From: Natribaculum luteum | GTDB taxonomy: Archaea; Halobacteriota; Halobacteria; Halobacteriales; Natrialbaceae | Assembly: GCF_023008545.1 (NCBI RefSeq) | Contig: NZ_CP095397.1 | Span: forward strand, 2,046,001 to 2,110,000 | Reading direction: 5' to 3' | DNA: 64,000 nt | Shown here: in pieces, positions 7,999 to 63,974 of the stretch | Layout: every line of letters begins with the position of its first letter | Numbering within the stretch: the stretch's first letter is position 1 | Position numbers and translations under genes: made by a program | Notes under the pieces: generated by a model | The model's input: the letters and a program-made list of their open reading frames with translations, nothing else | Databases searched by the model: none | What the model was told of the DNA's origin: nothing

Positions 7999-8673
7999 AT
8001 GTCGACTCGGCTCGATCCGCTCACGATCTCGGCCGACCTGTTGTACGCAGTCAAGACCGGAGGTGACGTCGCCGGACTGCGTGATCGCCTCGCTACCCTC
8101 GAGCGCGAACGACTCTCGAGGGCGCTGGCCAGCCGTCGACAGCGACTGGTGTTCTGGCTCAACTGTTACAACGCCTACGTCCAGTTGCGCCTGGACGACG
8201 GGCCGTCTCTCGACGATGGACCTCTCTCCCGCTGGCGGTTCTTCGCTCGGGACTGGATCCCCATCGCCGGACGGTGGTTGAGTCTCGACGACGTCGAACA
8301 CGGTCTGCTCCGGAGTTCGAAGCACCCGTGGGGACTCGGCTACCTCCCGCGACCGTTCCCGTCGTCGTTCGAGCGCACGTATCGACTCGAGGAGGTCGAC
8401 CCGCGAATCCACTTCGTCCTCTCGAAGGGAACCGACAAGAGTCCGCCGGTCACCGTCTACTCGCCGGACGACTGCAACGAGGAACTCGACGTCGCGACCG
8501 AGTGGTTTCTCGACGAGAACGTGAGCTACGATCCGAACGAGAACGTCGTGACCGTGCCGCGACTGTTCCTGTGGTATCAGGGGGACTTCGGTGGGCGACG
8601 CGGCGTCCTCGAGTTCCTGCGGCGATACGACGCGGTTCCGCCCGACGCGACGCCGTCGCTCGCGTACGACTGA
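7999..8673 (+). CDS. DUF547 domain-containing protein
   Basis: A 224-aa cytoplasmic protein with the hallmarks of DUF547: RLVFWLNCYNAYV near residue 52, a central DDVEHGLLR, PRIHFVLSKGT, and a C-terminal FLWYQGDFGG. In this family a Cys-His pair in a transglutaminase-like fold has been suggested; C56 and H135 could fit, but no activity is established. The ATG at 7999 begins the conserved part; the longer in-frame extension overlaps the divergent permease. Its TGA stop is also the first triplet of a TGATAC palindrome (see repeat at 8671). Confidence 0.8.
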   Translation: MSTRLDPLTISADLLYAVKTGGDVAGLRDRLATLERERLSRALASRRQRLVFWLNCYNAYVQLRLDDGPSLDDGPLSRWRFFARDWIPIAGRWLSLDDVEHGLLRSSKHPWGLGYLPRPFPSSFERTYRLEEVDPRIHFVLSKGTDKSPPVTVYSPDDCNEELDVATEWFLDENVSYDPNENVVTVPRLFLWYQGDFGGRRGVLEFLRRYDAVPPDATPSLAYD

Positions 8674-8755
8674 TACTGATGGCGGCGACTGTGTACCGGG
8701 GCAACCGCGAGACGGGTTACGGTTGCTCGCCGTCGCGGCCGTCACACCGTCGACG
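8671..8755. repeat. Stop-anchored palindromic element, diverged copy
   Basis: Begins with TGATAC, the TGA being the stop of the DUF547 gene. The inner arms GCAACCG and CGGTTGC are intact, and an outer pair GGCGGCGAC / GTCGCGGCC is still largely complementary. The right-hand terminus (GTAT or TTAT) has been lost. It is the most degraded of nine related copies and lies between convergent genes. Confidence 0.6.
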
Positions 8756-21207: not shown

Positions 21208-21293
21208 TCATAATGACGGCTGTGACTGGTTGCCGACGCAACCGCACGATGGTTCGCGGTTGCGGCGGTAACGACTCACAGCCATCGTTATCA
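21208..21293. repeat. Stop-anchored palindromic element (copy 2)
   Basis: An 86-bp imperfect palindrome. Read from the gatD side it begins TGATAACGATGGCTGTGA, the TGA being the gatD stop codon, and ends TCACAGCCGTCATTATGA. Outer arms pair over about 17 bp, inner arms contain CGCAACCGC / GCGGTTGCG. It separates two genes on the same strand. Subtype TGATAA...TTATNA. Confidence 0.85.
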
Positions 21294-25922: not shown

Positions 25923-26816
25923 ATGATCGACGAGTTGCTCGGCCGCGCTTCGCTCAAGGAGCGAATCGACGACCTCGAAGACGAGAACGAGCGACTGCGT
26001 CGCCGACTCGAGGCCGAATCAGACCGCCGAGCCGAGGCCGTCACCGCCCGACAGACGGCCGAGGAACGACAGAATCGCTTAGAAGACCGTATTGCACAGC
26101 TCGAGGGCGAACTCGAGCGACTCGAGGGGGCCGACTCGTCACTCGAGGTCCGCCGCCGGGAACGGCTTCGTGGCGACCGCCTCTCGGAGCTACTCGATCG
26201 GCTCGAATCCGTCCGCACGGGCTCCGAGGGGGCGCTGACGGCGACGGTCGCGGAGACGGTTCCCGATCCTGTCGCCGACGTCCTGGGCGAGCGATCCGCG
26301 CTCGTCGACGAGGCCGCGCCGTGTCTCGTCTGCGTCGACGACGCGGCCCTCGTCTCGGTCACACTCGACCCGCCGCTCGCACCGTCGGTCGACCCGACCT
26401 GGAGTGACCGGTTCGAACTCGAGCGGGAGTGGTTCGTTCCGTCGGGTCGGTACGCCCTCGCGCTCGTGCGCGCCGACCTGTTCGCGCTCGGGGTCTACGA
26501 GGCCGACGAGCGCGTCGACTACCGTGGCTTCGAGAGCGACGTGAAAGGAGCCCACTCCAAGGGCGGTTTCTCGCAGGCGCGCTTCGAGCGCATCCGCGAC
26601 GATCAGATCGATTCGCACGTCGCGCGCGCTCGAGAAACGATCGAAACCTACGAGGACGATCCGCTCTACCTCGTCGGCCAGCGCGGCGTCGTCGACGCCG
26701 TCGCCGACGACGTGACGGCTGACGCGACTGCCGCCGTCGACGCGACCGGCGATCCGGAGTCCGCACTCGAGGACGCGTTTCGGTCGTTCTGGACGACGGA
26801 CCTGCGGGTCGTCTGA
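25923..26816 (+). CDS. Vms1/Ankzf1-like (VLRF1) peptidyl-tRNA hydrolase/release factor
   Basis: A 297-aa protein. An N-terminal coiled coil (about 5-75) is followed by an eRF1-like fold; the signature H211-SKGGFSQARFER (211-223) corresponds to the Vms1 catalytic loop, with Q218 in the position of the glutamine that releases nascent chains from stalled ribosomes. Family knowledge: yeast Vms1 cleaves peptidyl-tRNA on 60S subunits; archaeal members are presumed to do the same. The TGA stop at 26814-26816 is the first triplet of a palindromic element. Upstream partner: DUF5802. Confidence 0.85.
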   Translation: MIDELLGRASLKERIDDLEDENERLRRRLEAESDRRAEAVTARQTAEERQNRLEDRIAQLEGELERLEGADSSLEVRRRERLRGDRLSELLDRLESVRTGSEGALTATVAETVPDPVADVLGERSALVDEAAPCLVCVDDAALVSVTLDPPLAPSVDPTWSDRFELEREWFVPSGRYALALVRADLFALGVYEADERVDYRGFESDVKGAHSKGGFSQARFERIRDDQIDSHVARARETIETYEDDPLYLVGQRGVVDAVADDVTADATAAVDATGDPESALEDAFRSFWTTDLRVV

Positions 26817-26899
26817 TAATGCCTGCTGTAACTGTTTCCCGGAGCAACCGCCGGGACGCTCGCGGTTGCTCCGGGAATGACTTACAGCAGACGTTATAA
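26814..26899. repeat. Stop-anchored palindromic element (copy 3)
   Basis: 86 bp, beginning TGATAATGCCTGCTGTAA (TGA is the stop of the Vms1-like gene) and ending TTACAGCAGACGTTATAA. Inner arms CCCGGAGCAACCGC / GCGGTTGCTCCGGG pair over 14 bp without mismatch; outer arms over about 16 bp with two mismatches. It is the best-preserved copy and separates two genes on the same strand, upstream of the dgcN promoter. Subtype TGATAA. Confidence 0.88.
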
Positions 26900-29031: not shown

Positions 29032-29117
29032 TGATAACGATGGCTGTGAGTCTGTCCCGCCGCAACCGCGAACCATCTCGCGGTTGCGTCGGCAACCAGT
29101 CACAGCCACCATTATCA
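29032..29117. repeat. Stop-anchored palindromic element (copy 4)
   Basis: 86 bp with TGATAA at both ends. Read from the right, TGATAATGGTGGCTGTGA starts at the stop codon of the convergent kinase gene; the left end TGATAACGATGGCTGTGA lies 16 nt after the dgcA stop. Inner arms contain CGCAACCGCG / CGCGGTTGCG. It sits exactly between convergent genes. Closely related to copy 2. Confidence 0.88.
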
Positions 29118-31653: not shown

Positions 31654-31746
31654 AGATGATTATTCGTGAACGAATGCAATAGCTGTTCTCCCGACTGCTC
31701 GAATCGGCGCTCGCGCCTCGAGAAAACGTCACGTCAGAACGTCGGT

Positions 31747-31797
31747 CGTACCCGGCTCCCGGTGCAACCGCAGAACGTTGCGGTCGTGCCGGGTACG
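31747..31797. repeat. Long hairpin, possibly related to the palindromic element
   Basis: A 51-bp inverted repeat between the regulator and pspA. Outer arms CGTACCCGGC / GCCGGGTACG pair perfectly over 10 bp; inner CAACCGCA / TGCGGT resembles the CAACCGC / GCGGTTG core of the stop-anchored elements, but TGATAA/TGATAC ends are missing. It may be a truncated or independent derivative. Located downstream of pspA. Confidence 0.55.
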
Positions 31798-31813
31798 TCT
31801 GCCAACCGACTAC

Positions 31814-32617
31814 CTAGCCTTCCTCTTCCTGGAGTTCGGTGAGTTCCGACTCGACGTCTTCGTCGACGTCCTCGAGGTCGACCTCCTCGTCCGCCTCGCT
31901 CGCCTCGCTCGCCGGTTCCTCCTCGCCCATCTCGGATTTGAGCGTCTCGAGTTCGGCCTCGACGCCGCTGTCGGTCGACAGCGCCTCGAGTTCGCGGTCG
32001 ATCTGGTCTTTGTCGGAGAGGACGTCCTCGAACGCGCCCGACTCGTGGAGTTCGTCGAGCGCCGCCGACCGGGCCTCCATATCCTGTGTGCGCTCTTCGG
32101 CCCGTTCGATGGCGCGCCCGACGTCCTCGAACTCCTCGCCGGTCGCCGTCATCGCCTCCGAGACAGTCGAACTCGCTTCCGCGGCCTCGTAGCGGGCTTT
32201 CATCGTCTCCTTTTTCGTGCGGAACTCCTCGATGCGCGACTGGAGTTCGTTTTTCTGCTCGATCAGCTGATCTTGCTGATTCTGCAGGTCGGAGATCTGG
32301 CGCTCCAGATCCTCGATCTGGTTCATCTTCGCCTTCTTTTTCTCCAGGGCCTGTCGCGCCAGGTCCTCCCGGTCCTGTTTGACCGCTCTCCGCGCCTGAT
32401 CGTTGTGCTTCTCGACGTTCTCCTCGAGTCGGCGTTTCTGCATCTCGAGGCGCTTTTTCTGCGTGGTGAGGTCGGCGATACCCCGTTTGACCTGCTGGAG
32501 CTGGTCTCGCATCTGCTCGTAGGAGTAGTCGAGCGTTTCGGTCGGGTCCTCGGCTCGATTGAGCAGCGAGTTGATCTTCGACCGGATGACGTACGAAGTC
32601 CGAGAGAGGATGCCCAT
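31814..32617 (-). CDS. pspA: PspA/IM30 family membrane-stress protein
   Basis: A 267-aa almost fully coiled-coil protein (about 20-200) with an amphipathic N-terminus (MGILSRTSYVIRSKINSLLNR) and acidic tail rich in EEE and DVDED. This is the ESCRT-III-like PspA/Vipp1 fold that assembles on stressed membranes. In haloarchaea it responds to salt or membrane stress (family knowledge). ATG at 32617 is chosen; a GTG 25 codons upstream is less likely. Monocistronic. Confidence 0.9.
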   Translation of the reverse strand: MGILSRTSYVIRSKINSLLNRAEDPTETLDYSYEQMRDQLQQVKRGIADLTTQKKRLEMQKRRLEENVEKHNDQARRAVKQDREDLARQALEKKKAKMNQIEDLERQISDLQNQQDQLIEQKNELQSRIEEFRTKKETMKARYEAAEASSTVSEAMTATGEEFEDVGRAIERAEERTQDMEARSAALDELHESGAFEDVLSDKDQIDRELEALSTDSGVEAELETLKSEMGEEEPASEASEADEEVDLEDVDEDVESELTELQEEEG

Positions 32618-41146: not shown

Positions 41147-41704
41147 TCACCGGACGTCGCGACGCGTGGCGATCTCGAACCAGGGACAGAGCCGGAGCTG
41201 TCGGTACCACTCCGGGTGCGTGTACAGTCGCTCGTAGGGAACCCACATCACGCCCGCGACCTCCTGCTCGTTCGGCTCGAGTGAGCGCTCGTGGAGGGTC
41301 AGTTGCAACACGGTACAGACCTCGTGTTCGACGCCTTCGTTCTCGAAGTAGCGTTTGTACTCGAACTTGTCCGTCACGCGCAGGCCGTCGTACTGGTCGG
41401 GGGTGATCCCGAGTTCCTCCTCGAGGCGTTCTCGCGTCGCCTCTTTCTGGCTCTGTCCGTCGATGGGGTGGGAGGCGACGGTTCCGTCCCAGTAAGTCCC
41501 CCAGAGGCGCTTGCTCGGTGCCCGCTGGGCGAGCAAAATGTTGTCGTCGTGATCGAAGACGAGCGACGTGAACGCTCGGTGTCGAATGCCGTCACCGGTG
41601 TGAGCCTCGAGTCGGTCGACGACGCCGAGTGCTTCGTCGTCCGCGTCGACGGCGACGACGTCTTCCGTGGCGTTCTCGTGTGGGTGTTCCCGCGTGGCAA
41701 CCAT
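41147..41704 (-). CDS. Idi-like NUDIX protein lacking the isomerase cysteine
   Basis: A 185-aa NUDIX-fold protein whose best match is type I isopentenyl-diphosphate isomerase: LAQRAPSKRLWGTYWDG, the NUDIX-like EATRERLEEELG helix, and EHEVCTVLQ carrying the conserved glutamate. However, the position of the catalytic cysteine (C67 in E. coli WTNSVCGHP) reads WDGTVASHP, so Ala replaces Cys. It may therefore be a hydrolase or use another acid. ATG at 41704 is chosen. An 84-bp palindrome lies just upstream, between it and the lipid-kinase gene. Confidence 0.8.
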   Translation of the reverse strand: MVATREHPHENATEDVVAVDADDEALGVVDRLEAHTGDGIRHRAFTSLVFDHDDNILLAQRAPSKRLWGTYWDGTVASHPIDGQSQKEATRERLEEELGITPDQYDGLRVTDKFEYKRYFENEGVEHEVCTVLQLTLHERSLEPNEQEVAGVMWVPYERLYTHPEWYRQLRLCPWFEIATRRDVR

Positions 41705-41758
41705 ACCGCCACCATCGGACAGGACCCTCAAACCAGTATCGACTGTTTGCACCCGCAG

Positions 41759-41842
41759 TCATACTATCGGACGTAACTGTGTGAAGATTCTCGCTACCCC
41801 GGGACGGCGAGAATCTTTCACGACTTACGTCCGGCAGTATCA
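41759..41842. repeat. Palindromic element with same outer stem but a different inner stem (copy 9)
   Basis: 84 bp. Read from the lipid-kinase side: TGATACTGCCGGACGTAA ... TTACGTCCGATAGTATGA. Outer ends match the TGATAC...GTATGA class, but the inner arms are GTGAAAGATTCTCGC / GCGAGAATCTTCAC, unrelated to CAACCGC. The kinase stop is TAG at 41844-41846, with the TGA starting 1 nt later, so here the element is next to, not overlapping, the stop. Confidence 0.75.
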
Positions 41843-41843
41843 C

Positions 41844-42779
41844 CTACCAGCCGGACGCGTCCGGATCCGGCTGGTAGCGGTCGCCGACGGCGACCTCGAG
41901 ACGCTCCGCGCTCGTCTCGAGGGTCAGTCGCTCCGCCTCGAGTGACTCCCCGTCGAGACTGTACTCGACCGGTTCGTCGTGCAGGCTCTCGAGGGTCACC
42001 CTCGACGCTCGTCGCGTGACGATGCGCGTCGTCTCTCGGTCGAACAGCCGCTCGAGGGCAGCCTGACCGACGAGGTCGGTCGGTGGGGCTTCCTCGACGA
42101 TAGTGACTTCGAACAGTCCGTCTTCGACGTCCGCTTGCGTCCGACGGACGCCCGCGAACCGTCGACAGTTACCCACGAGGACGAAAAGCGCCTCACCCTC
42201 CCACCGTTCCGCGTCCGACGATCCGTCGAGACCCTCGAGCGTGACTCGAAGTGGGAGCGAGTCGAACGAGGAGATCGTCTCGAGCGTCCGGAGGACGTAC
42301 GCGAGGACGCCGTACTCCCGCTTTCCGTTGGGCGTCGTCGCGGCGCTCGCCTCGGCTGTGACGCCCCCGATACAGGAGTTGACGAACGCACGTCCGTTCG
42401 CGATCCCGAGGTCGATCCGTCGCCGCTCGCCGTCCTCGATCACGTCGAAGGCCTCGGCGATGCTCTCGACGCCGACGTTCGACGCGAAGTTGTTTCCCGT
42501 CCCCGCGGGGACGACGGCGACGGTCGTCTCCGCCAGCCCGTCGGTCGCGAGGACGCCGTCGACGACCTCGTTTACCGTCCCGTCGCCGCCTGCTGTGGCC
42601 ACCAGGTCGGCCCCCTCGTTCGACGCCGCTCGCGCCAGCTGCCGTGCGTCGCCTTCTCCCTCGCTCTTTCGAACCTCGAAACCGTGCTCGTGAGCGAGTG
42701 TCTCGACGTGCGCGACGTGGTCTTCGCTTCCACTGACGGGATTGAGCACGAGCACGCGTTCGGGATCGCTTCGACTCAT
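41844..42779 (-). CDS. Diacylglycerol/lipid kinase family protein
   Basis: A 311-aa DagK/YegS-type kinase transferring phosphate from ATP to a lipid. The catalytic-domain signatures ATAGGDGTVNEVVDG (about 58-72) and PAGTGNNFASNVG (about 90-102) are intact; the beta-sandwich C-terminal domain ends with GDRYQPDPD. In haloarchaea the lipid may be an archaeol derivative or dolichol/undecaprenol-like, which cannot be told here. ATG at 42779 is supported by MSRSDPERVLVLNP, the family start. Next to a PHP gene on the opposite strand. Confidence 0.9.
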   Translation of the reverse strand: MSRSDPERVLVLNPVSGSEDHVAHVETLAHEHGFEVRKSEGEGDARQLARAASNEGADLVATAGGDGTVNEVVDGVLATDGLAETTVAVVPAGTGNNFASNVGVESIAEAFDVIEDGERRRIDLGIANGRAFVNSCIGGVTAEASAATTPNGKREYGVLAYVLRTLETISSFDSLPLRVTLEGLDGSSDAERWEGEALFVLVGNCRRFAGVRRTQADVEDGLFEVTIVEEAPPTDLVGQAALERLFDRETTRIVTRRASRVTLESLHDEPVEYSLDGESLEAERLTLETSAERLEVAVGDRYQPDPDASGW

Positions 42780-42863
42780 GGTTCCCCGTACCCGGGCAAG
42801 ACGGAAATTCCTCGCCCCCGTCTGTGCAGACACAGCTATGTTCGCCGTCGACCTGCACGCACA

Positions 42864-42871
42864 TACGCGCT
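42864..42871. repeat. Target-site duplication, left copy (TACGCGCT)
   Basis: Eight bases identical to 43816-43823, flanking the IS element. An 8-bp duplication is the size known for IS1595-family elements. Removing the element plus one copy restores the PHP reading frame. Confidence 0.9.
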
Positions 42872-42928
42872 CGCTCATCTCGATAAGTCGTAACATCAAT
42901 TTTCCTTACTCTCCAAGTGTCTTCCAAG

Positions 42929-43438
42929 ATGGACGAGAAGTCTGCGCAAGTGTTCCTTCCACCACGTGAGCGGTGCTTTGAACGTCTCCGTCTCGCCCGC
43001 TTCGGCGAGACGGTGACGTGTGTCCATTGCGAGAGTGACGACGTTGTCAAGCGCGGAACAACCGGAAAAGACGCCCAGCAGTACTGGTGCAAGGGGTGTG
43101 AGACGTACTTCAACGACCTCACAAACACGATCTTCGGCCAACATCGCTTCGAACTGGAAGAGATGTTCTATATCGTCAAGGAGATGCGATCTGAGCCGAC
43201 CGCTCAGATCGCTCGTGACCTTGGCCGAGACTACGAAGCTGTTCTCAACTTCGTTCACAAAGTCCAGGATGTGAGCGGGGAGATCGATGAATTTGAGCTG
43301 TACGATGTCTGTGAAGCTGACGAGATCTACGTAACAGCTGGTGAGAAAGGGATCGAAGACGAGGATCAGAGTCCGCGCAAGCGCGGACTCAAAAAAAGGG
43401 ACGAGGACGATTCGAATCAGACAAACCACCGGTGTTGA
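42929..43438 (+). CDS. IS1595 transposase, N-terminal reading frame
   Basis: First part of the transposase: zinc ribbon CVHCESDD...YWCKGC (about 30-55), helix-turn-helix-like EPTAQIARDLGRDYEAV, and the first catalytic acidic block CEADEIYVTAGEKG (about 128-140). It then reads through KRGLKKR at an A7 run (43391-43397) and stops after a short out-of-frame tail (SNQTNHRC). ATG at 42929 is preferred; 42917 is a weaker alternative. One extra A in the transcript would join it to the second frame. Confidence 0.85.
   Translation: MDEKSAQVFLPPRERCFERLRLARFGETVTCVHCESDDVVKRGTTGKDAQQYWCKGCETYFNDLTNTIFGQHRFELEEMFYIVKEMRSEPTAQIARDLGRDYEAVLNFVHKVQDVSGEIDEFELYDVCEADEIYVTAGEKGIEDEDQSPRKRGLKKRDEDDSNQTNHRC
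43369..43397 (+). promoter_or_regulatory. Stem-loop plus A7 run at the transposase frame change
   Basis: GAGTCCGCGC (43369-43378) and GCGCGGACTC (43381-43390) form a perfect 10-bp stem around AA, directly followed by A7 (43391-43397). This is the exact point at which the transposase frame shifts: CTC AAA AAA AGG... versus CTC AAA AAA AAG GGA with one inserted A. A stem-loop immediately 5' of a homopolymer run is a known arrangement for transcriptional slippage in some IS elements. Confidence 0.55.
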
Positions 43439-43812
43439 CACTCGTCCGTCGGGATGACGGACGAGTTCGGTTTCTCGTCTGCAAGGATCTCCAAGACGCC
43501 GACGAAGACATCGCTGAATACGGTGATGGAAGCGTCATCCTCTGTACCGATGATTACACAATCTACGACGAGATCGAGGAGAAGGAGGGGGTGGACGGCC
43601 ATCTGGCCGTCACCCACTCCGACACCTACGTCATCGGCGATGCCCACACGAACACCTGTGAGAACCGCCACAGCTTCCTTCGCCAGTGGCTGGCGAAGTT
43701 CAGAGGTGTCTCAAAACATCATCTCCAACGGTATCTCAATTTCCTTGAACTGAAACTCAACGAACCAGATAGCTGGTTCGAGAAACTCCTATGTTACAAT
43801 GTATCGGGATGA
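43432..43812 (+). CDS. IS1595 transposase, C-terminal reading frame
   Basis: Second part of the transposase in the -1 frame relative to the first. It contains VILCTDDYTIYDEIEE (second catalytic acid), THSDTYVIGDAHTNTCENRHSFLRQW (Asn/Glu block ending the DDE-type core) and KFRGVSKHHLQRYLNFLE, typical of ISXO2/ISH4-like transposases. The start at 43432 is nominal; the true product is most likely the fused 294-aa protein made by slippage at the A7 run. Stop TGA is inside the right terminal repeat. Confidence 0.8.
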   Translation: MLTLVRRDDGRVRFLVCKDLQDADEDIAEYGDGSVILCTDDYTIYDEIEEKEGVDGHLAVTHSDTYVIGDAHTNTCENRHSFLRQWLAKFRGVSKHHLQRYLNFLELKLNEPDSWFEKLLCYNVSG

Positions 43813-47054: not shown

Positions 47055-47140
47055 TCATAACGACTGTTGTGAGTCAGTGCCGATGCAACCGCGAACCGTC
47101 GTGCGGTTTCATCGGGAACCAGTCACAACAGACATTATCA
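47055..47140. repeat. Stop-anchored palindromic element (copy 5)
   Basis: 86 bp between TauE and SIMPL genes, same strand. Read from TauE: TGATAATGTCTGTTGTGA ... TCACAACAGTCGTTATGA, the TGA being the TauE stop. The outer pair GTTGT / ACAAC differs from GCTGT / ACAGC in other copies on both arms, so pairing is kept. Inner arms GAAACCGC / GCGGTTGC show one non-compensated change. Confidence 0.86.
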
Positions 47141-48459: not shown

Positions 48460-48541
48460 TCATACGGTGCTGTGTGTCAGTTCCGGGCAACCGCGAACCG
48501 TCTTGCGGGTGCCCGGGACACGGCTACAGCAAACCGTATCA
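48460..48541. repeat. Stop-anchored palindromic element (copy 6)
   Basis: 82 bp. Read from PurH: TGATACGGTTTGCTGTAG ... ACACAGCACCGTATGA; the TGA is the purH stop. Inner arms GGGCACCCGC / GCGGTTGCCC. Subtype TGATAC...GTATGA. Lies between co-directional purH and the small ORF/TauE pair, with a small extra hairpin (CTGTGT/ACACAG) 50 nt away. Confidence 0.83.
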
Positions 48542-60669: not shown

Positions 60670-61400
60670 CGAGGGTCCTGCTCGTTCGCGACGACCGCGA
60701 GTACCTCGTCGAACCCGGCGAAGAACTGGGAACCGACCTCGGCGTCCTCGAGGTACCAGACGACGTCGAACCCGGCGAGAGCGTCGAGACACATCTCGGC
60801 AACGAGTTCCAGGTGCGCAGACTCCGTGGTCCGGACCTCTTTCACCACTTCGAACGGACGGGCGCGCCGATGGTCCCCCGCGACGTCGGCCTCGTGATCG
60901 GCGAGACCGGCGTCTCGACGGGCGACCGTGTGCTCGACGCTGGAACCGGGACCGGCGTGCTCGCCGCGTCGATGGCGCGGGCGGGGGCGTCCGTGACCAC
61001 CTACGAACGCGACCCGGAGTTCGCGGACGTCGCACGCGAGAACGTGGCACTGGCGGGCGTCGCCGACGCCGTCGAGGTCCGCACCGGCGACGTCGTCGAC
61101 GACCTCGAGGAACTGACCTCGAGCGAACCGTTCGACGTCCTCACGCTCGATACGGGCGACGCGGCGTCGGTCGTCGCGCGCGCGCCGTCGTTGCTCGTCG
61201 ACGGCGGCTTCGTCGCGGTCTACAGCCCGTTCGTCGAGACCAGCCGTGAAGTCGTCGAGACGGCCCGCGAGGCCGGACTCGCGGCGGTTCGAACCCGCGA
61301 GACGATCCAGCGCGAGATGGACTTCGACGAGCGTGGCTCCCGGCCGTCGACGGCACCCGTCGGTCACACGGGCTATCTGACGATCGCCCGAAACGACTGA
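60666..61400 (+). CDS. trmI: tRNA (adenine-N1)-methyltransferase TrmI
   Basis: A 244-aa SAM enzyme methylating A57/A58 in archaeal tRNA T-loops. SAM motif [14 protein letters not shown] (about 92-105), [14 protein letters not shown] and a C-terminal [11 protein letters not shown]. The N-terminal 80 residues form the small beta-barrel with [19 protein letters not shown] start at 60666 fixed by overlap with NAC. Its TGA stop begins a TGATAC palindrome. Confidence 0.93.
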
Positions 61401-61482
61401 TACGGACTGCTGTACGCAGTACCGGGACAACCGCGAACCGCCATGCGGTCGTCCCGGGATACAGTTACAGCAGCCCGTATGA
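61398..61482. repeat. Stop-anchored palindromic element (copy 7)
   Basis: 85 bp beginning with TGATACGGACTGCTGTA (TGA is the trmI stop) and ending TACAGCAGCCCGTATGA. Outer arms pair over 15 bp with two mismatches, inner GGGACAACCGC / GCGGTCGTCCC. Subtype TGATAC. It precedes a 364-bp gene-free stretch. Confidence 0.87.
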
Positions 61483-62592: not shown

Positions 62593-63891
62593 GTGAACCG
62601 TGAGATCGTTCGACGGGTACTCGCGCCCTTTGCCGTCGATCGGCGAGTGCTCGCGCTCGCGTTCGCGCGGATGGCCGACGGCGTCGGCAACTCGTTTCTG
62701 ATCGTCGTTATCCCGCTGTACGTGGCGAGTGGCGTGGTCGGTGGCGTCTCCTTTGGACTCGCGGAGTCGATGATCATCGGCGTCATCCTCTCGCTGTACG
62801 GGTTCCTGAACAGCGTCTTCCAGCCGTTTACGGGGCGGTTTTCCGACAGGACGGGCAAGCGAAAGGCGTTCATCCTCGTCGGTCTCGGCGGGCTCGCCGT
62901 GACGAACCTGGCTTACGTCTTTGCCGAGGCGTACCTCGAGCTCGTCGTCATCCGCGGGTTACAGGGCGTCAGCGTCGCGTTCATCGTCCCGACGTCGATC
63001 GCGCTCGTGAACGAACTCGCGACCACGACCGACCGCGGCGGGAACATGGGCGTCTACAACACGTTTCGACTGGTCGGCTTCGGTGCCGGTCCGGTCGCTG
63101 CTGGCGCGGTGGTCAACGCCGGCCCCTACGTGCTCCCGGTCGTCGACGGCGTGACGGTCAGCGGCTTCGACGCCGCGTTCTACGTCGCAGCGACGACGGC
63201 CGTGATCAGCTACGCCATGGTCACGGTTTTGATCACCGACCCGGAGGCGACGCAAGCCAGTGCGGGTGACGACCTCGCGATCGCCGTCCGCGACCGGACG
63301 GGATCGAACCTGCTCGATCCGGTGTTCACCCTCGGCGTCGCCACGCTGTTTATGGCGACCGCGATCGCGCTGTTCGCGACGATCCAGCCCCAGATCAACG
63401 CCAGACTCGAGCAGGGGGCGACGTGGTTCGGGTTGCAGTTCGCGGCGTTCGTCATCGCCCAGGTGCTCTTGCAGACGCCGATCGGGCGAGCGAGCGACCG
63501 GTACGGACGACGGCCGTTCATCGTCGTCGGCATGGTCCTCCTGATTCCGACGACGCTCGCACAGGGGTTCGTCACGACCTCCGCGGCGATGTTCGCCGCG
63601 CGCCTGGCACAGGGAGTGGCGGGAGCGATGGTGTTCGCGCCGTCGCTCGCGCTGGCAGGCGACCTTGCGGGCGAGGGCGAGTCGGGAACGAAACTGTCGG
63701 TTCTCACGATGGCCTTCGGGTTCGGCATCGCGTTCGGGCCGCTCACCTCGGGGGCGCTCGTCGGCTACGGCTTCGCGGTCCCGTTCGCGTTCGGTGCCGT
63801 TCTCGCCGTCCTCGGCTCCGTACTCGTCTACACACAGGTCGAAGAGACCCTCGACGTGGCTTCGAGCGCGCCGTCCCCCGGCGACGACTGA
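62593..63891 (+). CDS. MFS transporter
   Basis: A 432-aa permease with twelve predicted membrane helices in two halves, and the MFS loop GRFSDRTGKRKAF (about 77-89) between helices 2 and 3, repeated as GRASDRYGRRPF (about 298-310) in the second half. This fits drug/H+ antiporters, but the substrate is unknown. Start is uncertain: GTG at 62593 (VNREIVRRV) is chosen; TTG 62566 and GTG 62575 are alternatives. The TGA stop begins a palindromic element. Confidence 0.83.
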   Translation: MNREIVRRVLAPFAVDRRVLALAFARMADGVGNSFLIVVIPLYVASGVVGGVSFGLAESMIIGVILSLYGFLNSVFQPFTGRFSDRTGKRKAFILVGLGGLAVTNLAYVFAEAYLELVVIRGLQGVSVAFIVPTSIALVNELATTTDRGGNMGVYNTFRLVGFGAGPVAAGAVVNAGPYVLPVVDGVTVSGFDAAFYVAATTAVISYAMVTVLITDPEATQASAGDDLAIAVRDRTGSNLLDPVFTLGVATLFMATAIALFATIQPQINARLEQGATWFGLQFAAFVIAQVLLQTPIGRASDRYGRRPFIVVGMVLLIPTTLAQGFVTTSAAMFAARLAQGVAGAMVFAPSLALAGDLAGEGESGTKLSVLTMAFGFGIAFGPLTSGALVGYGFAVPFAFGAVLAVLGSVLVYTQVEETLDVASSAPSPGDD

Positions 63892-63974
63892 TACGAACCG
63901 CTGTCCGTCCGTCCCGCAGCGACCACGTCCCGTCGGGCGGTCGCTGCGGAAAAGCGGGACAGCAGACCGTATGG
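63889..63974. repeat. Stop-anchored palindromic element (copy 8)
   Basis: 86 bp beginning TGATACGAACCGCTGTCC (TGA is the MFS stop) and ending GGACAGCAGACCGTATGG. Inner arms CCGCAGCGACC / GGTCGCTGCGG differ from CAACCGC in sequence but keep pairing. At the edge of the window. Confidence 0.83.

Follow-up and report, generated by a model that had tools for sequence, protein, structure and literature searches.

An 84-bp mobile palindrome of Natribaculum luteum, probably moved by an IS630-type transposase, has ends in common with palindromes of different inner stems

The 84-bp palindrome at positions 41759-41842 of the window (the whole stretch of Natribaculum luteum DNA that was analysed, 64,000 nucleotides of contig NZ_CP095397.1) was confirmed to be one copy of a mobile family. 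The element is short, has no transposase coding capacity, and carries terminal inverted repeats. It passes the sequence tests for a MITE, and is best read as such. The element is most probably moved in trans by an IS630-type transposase, and the different palindrome families would share their ends through related transposases.

The full sequence of the element is TCA-TACTATCGGACGTAACTGTGTGAAGATTCTCGCTACCCCGGGACGGCGAGAATCTTTCACGACTTACGTCCGGCAGTA-TCA. On the minus strand it reads TGATACTGCCGGACGTAAGTC-GTGAAAGATTCTCGC-...-GCGAGAATCTTCAC-...-GTATGA, with a length of 84 bp. The preliminary description, made from the sequence alone, had given this length and the family-type ends correctly. It had also rightly placed the element one base past the TAG stop of the lipid-kinase gene, with an inner stem unlike CAACCGC. 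The element occupies nearly all of the gap between the stop of the lipid-kinase gene and the start of the NUDIX gene. Its parts and neighbours are listed below.

41759..41842, plus strand: palindromic mobile element, 84 bp, both 3-bp target duplications included
78 bp (TACTATC...GGCAGTA), plus strand: core of the element
41759..41761, no strand: left target-site duplicate TCA, forming a direct TCA/TCA pair; TCA is single at the empty sites of the sister copies
41840..41842, no strand: right target-site duplicate TCA
41762..41781, plus strand: left arm, bearing the ACTG version of the asymmetric box
41822..41839, minus strand: right arm, bearing the AGTC version of the box
41786..41794, plus strand: inner stem, left strand GATTCTCGC
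41807..41815, plus strand: inner stem, right strand GCGAGAATC
41795..41806, no strand: hairpin loop, 12 bases
41844..42896, minus strand: DAGK_cat/YegS-type lipid kinase gene, TAG stop at 41844-41846, 1 nt from the element
41147..41752, minus strand: NUDIX hydrolase gene, downstream

The element was predicted to form a near-perfect hairpin (-40.6 kcal/mol, z=-7.1), and no T-run follows the hairpin in the sequence. The Rfam search with the element found no curated RNA family up to E=1, and the phage and viral collections gave no match. On its other side, the lipid-kinase gene is bordered by an IS1595-type transposase remnant in two overlapping frames (42917-43812; PF12760 weak, PF12762).

Copies of the element were searched by BLAST. 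The preliminary description had named a genome-unique inner sequence as an argument against a family; instead, five copies with 98-100% identity and one with 71% were found in its own genome. The flanks of the five copies are unrelated, and each copy is bordered by direct TCA/TCA or TGA/TGA. The sister species Natribaculum breve (CP095391/CP095392) has undergone a burst of about 100 copies, at least 68 of them with exact left ends, and the inspected copies are practically identical. Further copies of the family were found in three other relatives and on several plasmids. Where the window's genome lacks an N. breve copy, its undisturbed site is shorter by exactly 81 bp and contains TCA once (four clean cases). 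Thus the core is 78 bp, and 3 bp are duplicated on insertion. Two readings of the N. breve copies were rejected. Apparently unpaired ends of the family, considered as IS ends, all belonged to complete 80-bp cores; an orientation bias relative to TCA in the first N. breve set was an artefact of best BLAST hits, since the query carried TC/CA.

The window's copy is present at the orthologous place in N. breve (L147). The element is 100% identical there, the region 94%, and a private T in the loop is common to both. Gene conversion, selection or chance could account for this difference. The kinase and NUDIX genes are also adjacent in several other relatives, with no element match between them and usually a shorter spacer.

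The target duplication was also examined in 140 elements from named haloarchaeal genomes. The two duplicates have the same N of TNA in 132 of them. TNA fits most copies, whereas a minority fit a TA duplication; a one-base duplication (N only) was also considered, which by sequence alone looks the same as TNA. Among the 114-bp elements, a minority (L032, L043, L024, L073) have TAA...TAC flanks, which fit neither TNA nor TA cleanly. In the window's own genome, palindromes are nested in 114-bp palindromes at two loci, L075 998-1194 (C1:186997-187193) and L055 2602-2796. The nested CAACCGC element and the nested GTACCCGC element are independent insertions into the same TGA of the 114-bp elements, where other 114-bp copies read GATGTCTGAACCG. 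The TGA duplication therefore also holds for other stem families.

The ends of these palindromes are shared far beyond the 84-bp family. With one mismatch allowed, the genome contains 173 matches to the end pattern TNATACTRYCGGAC and 3 to its reversed control. Most of the matches belong to the 114-bp palindrome family with stem GATCGC; the remainder are 84-bp forms. The CAACCGC palindromes gave 109 half-hits in the genome, and 0 in the control. Several inner-stem families with common ends, which the preliminary description had proposed to look for, were found: CAACCGC, CGACCGC, GTACCCGC, GATTCTCGC, GATCGC (the 114-bp form), ATAGCGCCGA, and ATGTCGCCGA. These families share the 3-bp TNA duplication and, except for the 114-bp form, the length. 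The likeness of TGATAC...GTATGA ends claimed earlier is real, but the exact hexamer pair is found in only one other element of the window. The truly common ends are TNATA...TATNA, together with a box (GTAA-CTG / GTAA-GTC) whose distance from them is fixed. In an alignment of 24 elements, most have TNATA and GT at columns 15-16 irrespective of the stem, and most have the ACTG box on one arm and the AGTC box on the other at fixed positions.

A covariance model (R1) was built from the CAACCGC and CGACCGC palindromes only. It detects the 84-bp element at E=1.4e-8. As R1 was built without the 84-bp family, this match shows that the ends and architecture are common despite the unrelated inner stem. 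Since palindromes alone raise the model scores, the arms were also scored singly beyond TNATA; each arm alone ranks in the top 0.03-0.06% of window positions. A short hairpin with accidentally similar ends might be proposed, as the ends by themselves are short. However, the 173 matches against 3, the E-value from an independent model, and the dozens of near-identical copies leave practically no room for chance, which the preliminary description had set as the level that the end likeness should exceed. R1 matches were found in 51 of the 146 sampled Halobacteriales genomes (27/57 genera). One arm variant was found in, among others, Natrialba, Natrinema, Natronococcus, Natronorubrum, Natrarchaeobius, Salinadaptatus, Halobiforma, and Halostella. 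The related palindromes in the window are as follows.

8671..8746, plus strand: degraded related palindrome, overlapping a called reading frame
21208..21293, plus strand: related palindrome, CAACCGC stem; right TCA (TGA on the minus strand) is the neighbour's stop
26814..26899, plus strand: related palindrome, CAACCGC stem; left TGA is the stop of the gene to the left
29032..29117, minus strand: related palindrome, CAACCGC stem; right end on a TGA stop
31734..31817, plus strand: diverged related palindrome (E=1e-4); end overlaps the neighbour's TAG stop
47055..47140, minus strand: related palindrome, CAACCGC-type stem; on a TGA stop
48460..48541, minus strand: related palindrome, CACCCGC/CAACCGC stem; on a TGA stop
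61398..61482, minus strand: related palindrome, CGACCGC/CAACCGC stem; on a TGA stop
63889..63974, minus strand: related palindrome, GCGACCGC stem; on a TGA stop

Two explanations of the different stems had been offered in the preliminary description. One, that only the ends and overall shape are needed for spread, is supported by at least half a dozen inner stems with the same ends and TNA duplication. The other, that the stems are exchangeable modules, was borne out in part. The inner stem GATTCTCGC is found behind GGACGTAA arms (Natribaculum, G015) and behind GGCTGTAA arms (G004); a close variant of the GATTCTCGC and GGCTGTAA arrangement is found in Haloarcula hispanica, and a single outer arm may have up to 15 inner variants. 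True modular exchange, in which gene conversion or homologous recombination within the common arms would swap the stems, is a minority possibility here. The common arms are short (15-25 bp), and the inner variation is mostly stepwise, by single compensated base-pair changes. No single genome was found to contain two recent elements that have the same outer arms but entirely different stems.

Compensated changes were counted in two families. In the 84-bp family there were 36 double-changed cells, compared with 11.7 in shuffles; in the other palindrome family there were 51, compared with 20.7. These counts are inflated by the kinship of the copies, but with slid controls they are 0-9. Most of the stem variation can be put down to drift of a stem that is free to change but stays paired, and recombinational swapping may also play a part. 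The compensation may be due to selection for the hairpin or to template-switch correction of palindromes, and the data are compatible with both.

A search with PF13358 identified a candidate mover. It is an IS630-type IS of 1,076 bp with both duplications, present in N. breve, the window's genome, and G015. Its transposase (NF033545 E=1.6e-43, PF13358 E=1.5e-32) lies in two overlapping reading frames (L447 1006-2081 and relatives). The ends of the IS are TNA-TACTGTCAGCC... and ...CCGTGAGTA-TNA. Most IS copies in the three genomes have TNA duplications, and the flanks read by eye showed a matching duplication in 17 of the 20 inspected copies. The right end of the IS resembles the right arm and adjoining stem of the palindrome (19/26 bases, p=1.3e-6). 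The likeness of the IS left ends to the Natribaculum left arm is moderate (15/26, p about 1e-3). The left arms of the G004 and H. hispanica palindromes match the IS left ends at 15-20/26, those of H. hispanica at 18-20/26. One end of this IS (L208) had already turned up in a blind scan as an isolated palindrome-like end, when the IS itself had yet to be identified. Apart from L208, the isolated-end scans, which covered the loci in hand and 120 loci of named genomes, returned mostly degenerate copies. The IS has recently multiplied in N. breve, where 13 copies have a 100% identical protein.

Close relatives of the IS, with about 82-90% protein identity, were found in Haloarcula, Halorubrum, Halovenus, and Natrinema plasmids. 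Plasmids of Natrialba and Natrinema have annotated transposases related to it at about 42% identity (ISNma7, ISNpe3). By NF033545 and PF13358, the candidate partner belongs to the same IS630 family as these haloarchaeal elements. Any IS630 elements of Natrialba and Natrinema with TNATACGG ends would be candidate partners for the CAACCGC family. A second IS630 group (L434, L437, L482; about 1.13 kb) has TAGTG ends and a TNA duplication, and up to 18-19 of 26 bases at its ends agree with TAGTG palindromes found in other genera. A further IS630 group, in G015, is consistent with an ordinary TA duplication. No IS was found with TACGG or TAATG ends, the type of the commonest palindromes. Co-occurrence of the IS and the palindromes is partial: close IS relatives are present without the 84-bp family in G003, G013, G014, and G040, and palindromes are present without a close IS in G004 (70% complete) and G021. 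Transposases of the PF01609 (IS4/IS5) type were rejected as the mover, as no TNA with TA-type ends was found for them.

The target duplication of textbook IS630 elements is TA, whereas the subgroup of the candidate partner duplicates TNA. As the palindrome differs from the textbook elements in this way, it is described as probably moved by an IS630-type IS, and not as a canonical IS630 MITE. A different mover might be a Y1 (IS200/RAYT-type) single-strand transposase that recognizes the hairpin, as in REP/REPIN-like palindromes. The near-perfect hairpins with conserved internal mismatches, the high copy number, and the intergenic placement would suit such a mover, and Y1 transposase genes are present in 6 of 6 genomes tested. 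However, Y1 enzymes leave no target duplication, and the 3-bp TNA duplication is seen at the empty sites; the target duplications largely refute this reading. The GTAG/CGTC tag is absent from the ends, no palindromes flank the Y1 genes except for one weak score, and the palindrome ends match the IS630-type IS instead. Movement by Y1 enzymes is thus highly improbable.

Movement by an IS630-type transposase would proceed as follows. The DDE enzyme would cut at TNA, duplicate these three bases, and move the 84-bp element in trans. Related enzymes would recognize the terminal TAC/TAA/TAG together with the sub-terminal asymmetric box (GTAA-CTG on the left, GTAA-GTC on the right), and it is proposed that the palindrome families share their ends for this reason. 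The inner stem would lie outside the recognition signal, and could differ freely as long as it still forms a hairpin. We infer that the IS630-type IS acts in trans, that its transposase binds the box, and that the stem is irrelevant to transposition. Related IS630 transposases probably drive the families, each of which has its characteristic type of ends. Insertions would be widespread; those exactly on a TGA stop would leave the gene intact and survive longest. As such insertions would be harmless and the longest-lived, old copies would become concentrated at gene ends.

The palindromes are enriched at stop codons. Of the 10 palindromes in the window, 7 supply the neighbour's stop through the TGA duplicate, compared with about 12.5% of non-coding TCA/TGA sites (p=4e-5). 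Among 123 elements, 56 (46%) are at stops, compared with 4.8% of nearby TCA/TGA sites; coding sites are part of this control, which makes 12.5% the fairer standard of comparison. The gene calls were based on reading frame and GC3, and were not curated. A distant copy on the Haloarcula hispanica plasmid pHH400 (L296 1501-1584) gives an annotated CPBP intramembrane protease gene its stop codon. Recent N. breve copies are at stops in 11 of 41 cases (p=0.01 against 12.5%), and inside frames in 5 of 41; older or other-stem copies outside N. breve are at stops in 42 of 73 (p=0.002 against the recent copies). No long target motif accounting for the placement was found. We conclude that the survival of harmless insertions is behind the excess at stop codons, perhaps with a mild initial preference.

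The placement might also suggest that the hairpin works as an RNA structure or terminator and is retained by selection at the ends of genes, besides or instead of being a selfish element. The very stable fold, the compensatory stem changes, the concentration at stops in the window, and the complete identity between two species amid 94% surroundings are in keeping with this function. However, the hairpin lacks a T-run and an Rfam match, and template-switch repair can also keep palindromes perfect. Near-identical copies at non-orthologous sites, empty sites, and the recent copies inside frames indicate recent transposition. Selection for a functional hairpin is considered unlikely. A bolder reading, which we regard as speculative and rather doubtful, is a haloarchaeal IS630-driven hairpin superfamily specialized on stop codons, in which a selfish element would at the same time serve, throughout the order, as a mobile regulatory module for 3' ends. 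Insertion into TGA would leave the protein whole, and would add a new, replaceable 3' hairpin to the gene.

As a MITE probably moved by an IS630-type IS, the element can be compared with known palindromic repeats. The bacterial MITEs RUP (Streptococcus pneumoniae), Correia/NEMIS (Neisseria), and ERIC are palindromic and mostly intergenic, with terminal TA and target duplications (PMC2229807). The 84-bp element is likewise short, protein-less and palindromic, with inverted repeats and target duplications. Unlike them, it has a 3-bp TNA duplication and, apart from a 12-base loop, consists almost entirely of arm; many inner stems occur in a single superfamily that extends across an archaeal order, and about half of the examined copies use the duplicate as a stop codon. 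The short mobile repeats (SMRs) of Haloquadratum walsbyi are about 110 bp (SMR-A) and 80 bp (SMR-B), and are reported to leave the target unduplicated and to have no related transposons (PMC3119063). Their lengths are similar to those of the present palindromes (here 114 and 84 bp), and both kinds have inverted repeats and a high copy number and insert into other mobile elements; target duplications and an IS with related ends distinguish the present families from the SMRs (HqIRS41/42/43/55), which were compared by description only. The PATEs of Haloquadratum have no terminal inverted repeats or duplications and belong with IS605 (PMC3119063). They are also palindromic, transposase-free haloarchaeal repeats, but the present elements have target duplications and an IS with related ends. 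In the main REP superfamilies the repeats are 20-40 bp long and carry GTAG/CGTC tags (PMC3733652), and YPAL duplications are variable, from 3 to 26 bp (PMC2229807). REP/REPIN and YPAL are likewise palindromic intergenic repeats; unlike REPINs, the present elements have target duplications and an IS with related ends. Literature searches, with most subscription journals outside their coverage, found no description of these palindromes.

In summary, a likely autonomous partner is proposed for one family of the abundant haloarchaeal palindromes. Transposition is suggested to need the ends, the asymmetric box, and the TNA target, with the inner stem left free. The results also point to a strong association of stop codons with transposable elements in compact genomes. 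Should the hairpins influence transcript 3' ends, a single transposon lineage would have remodelled the ends of genes throughout an order.
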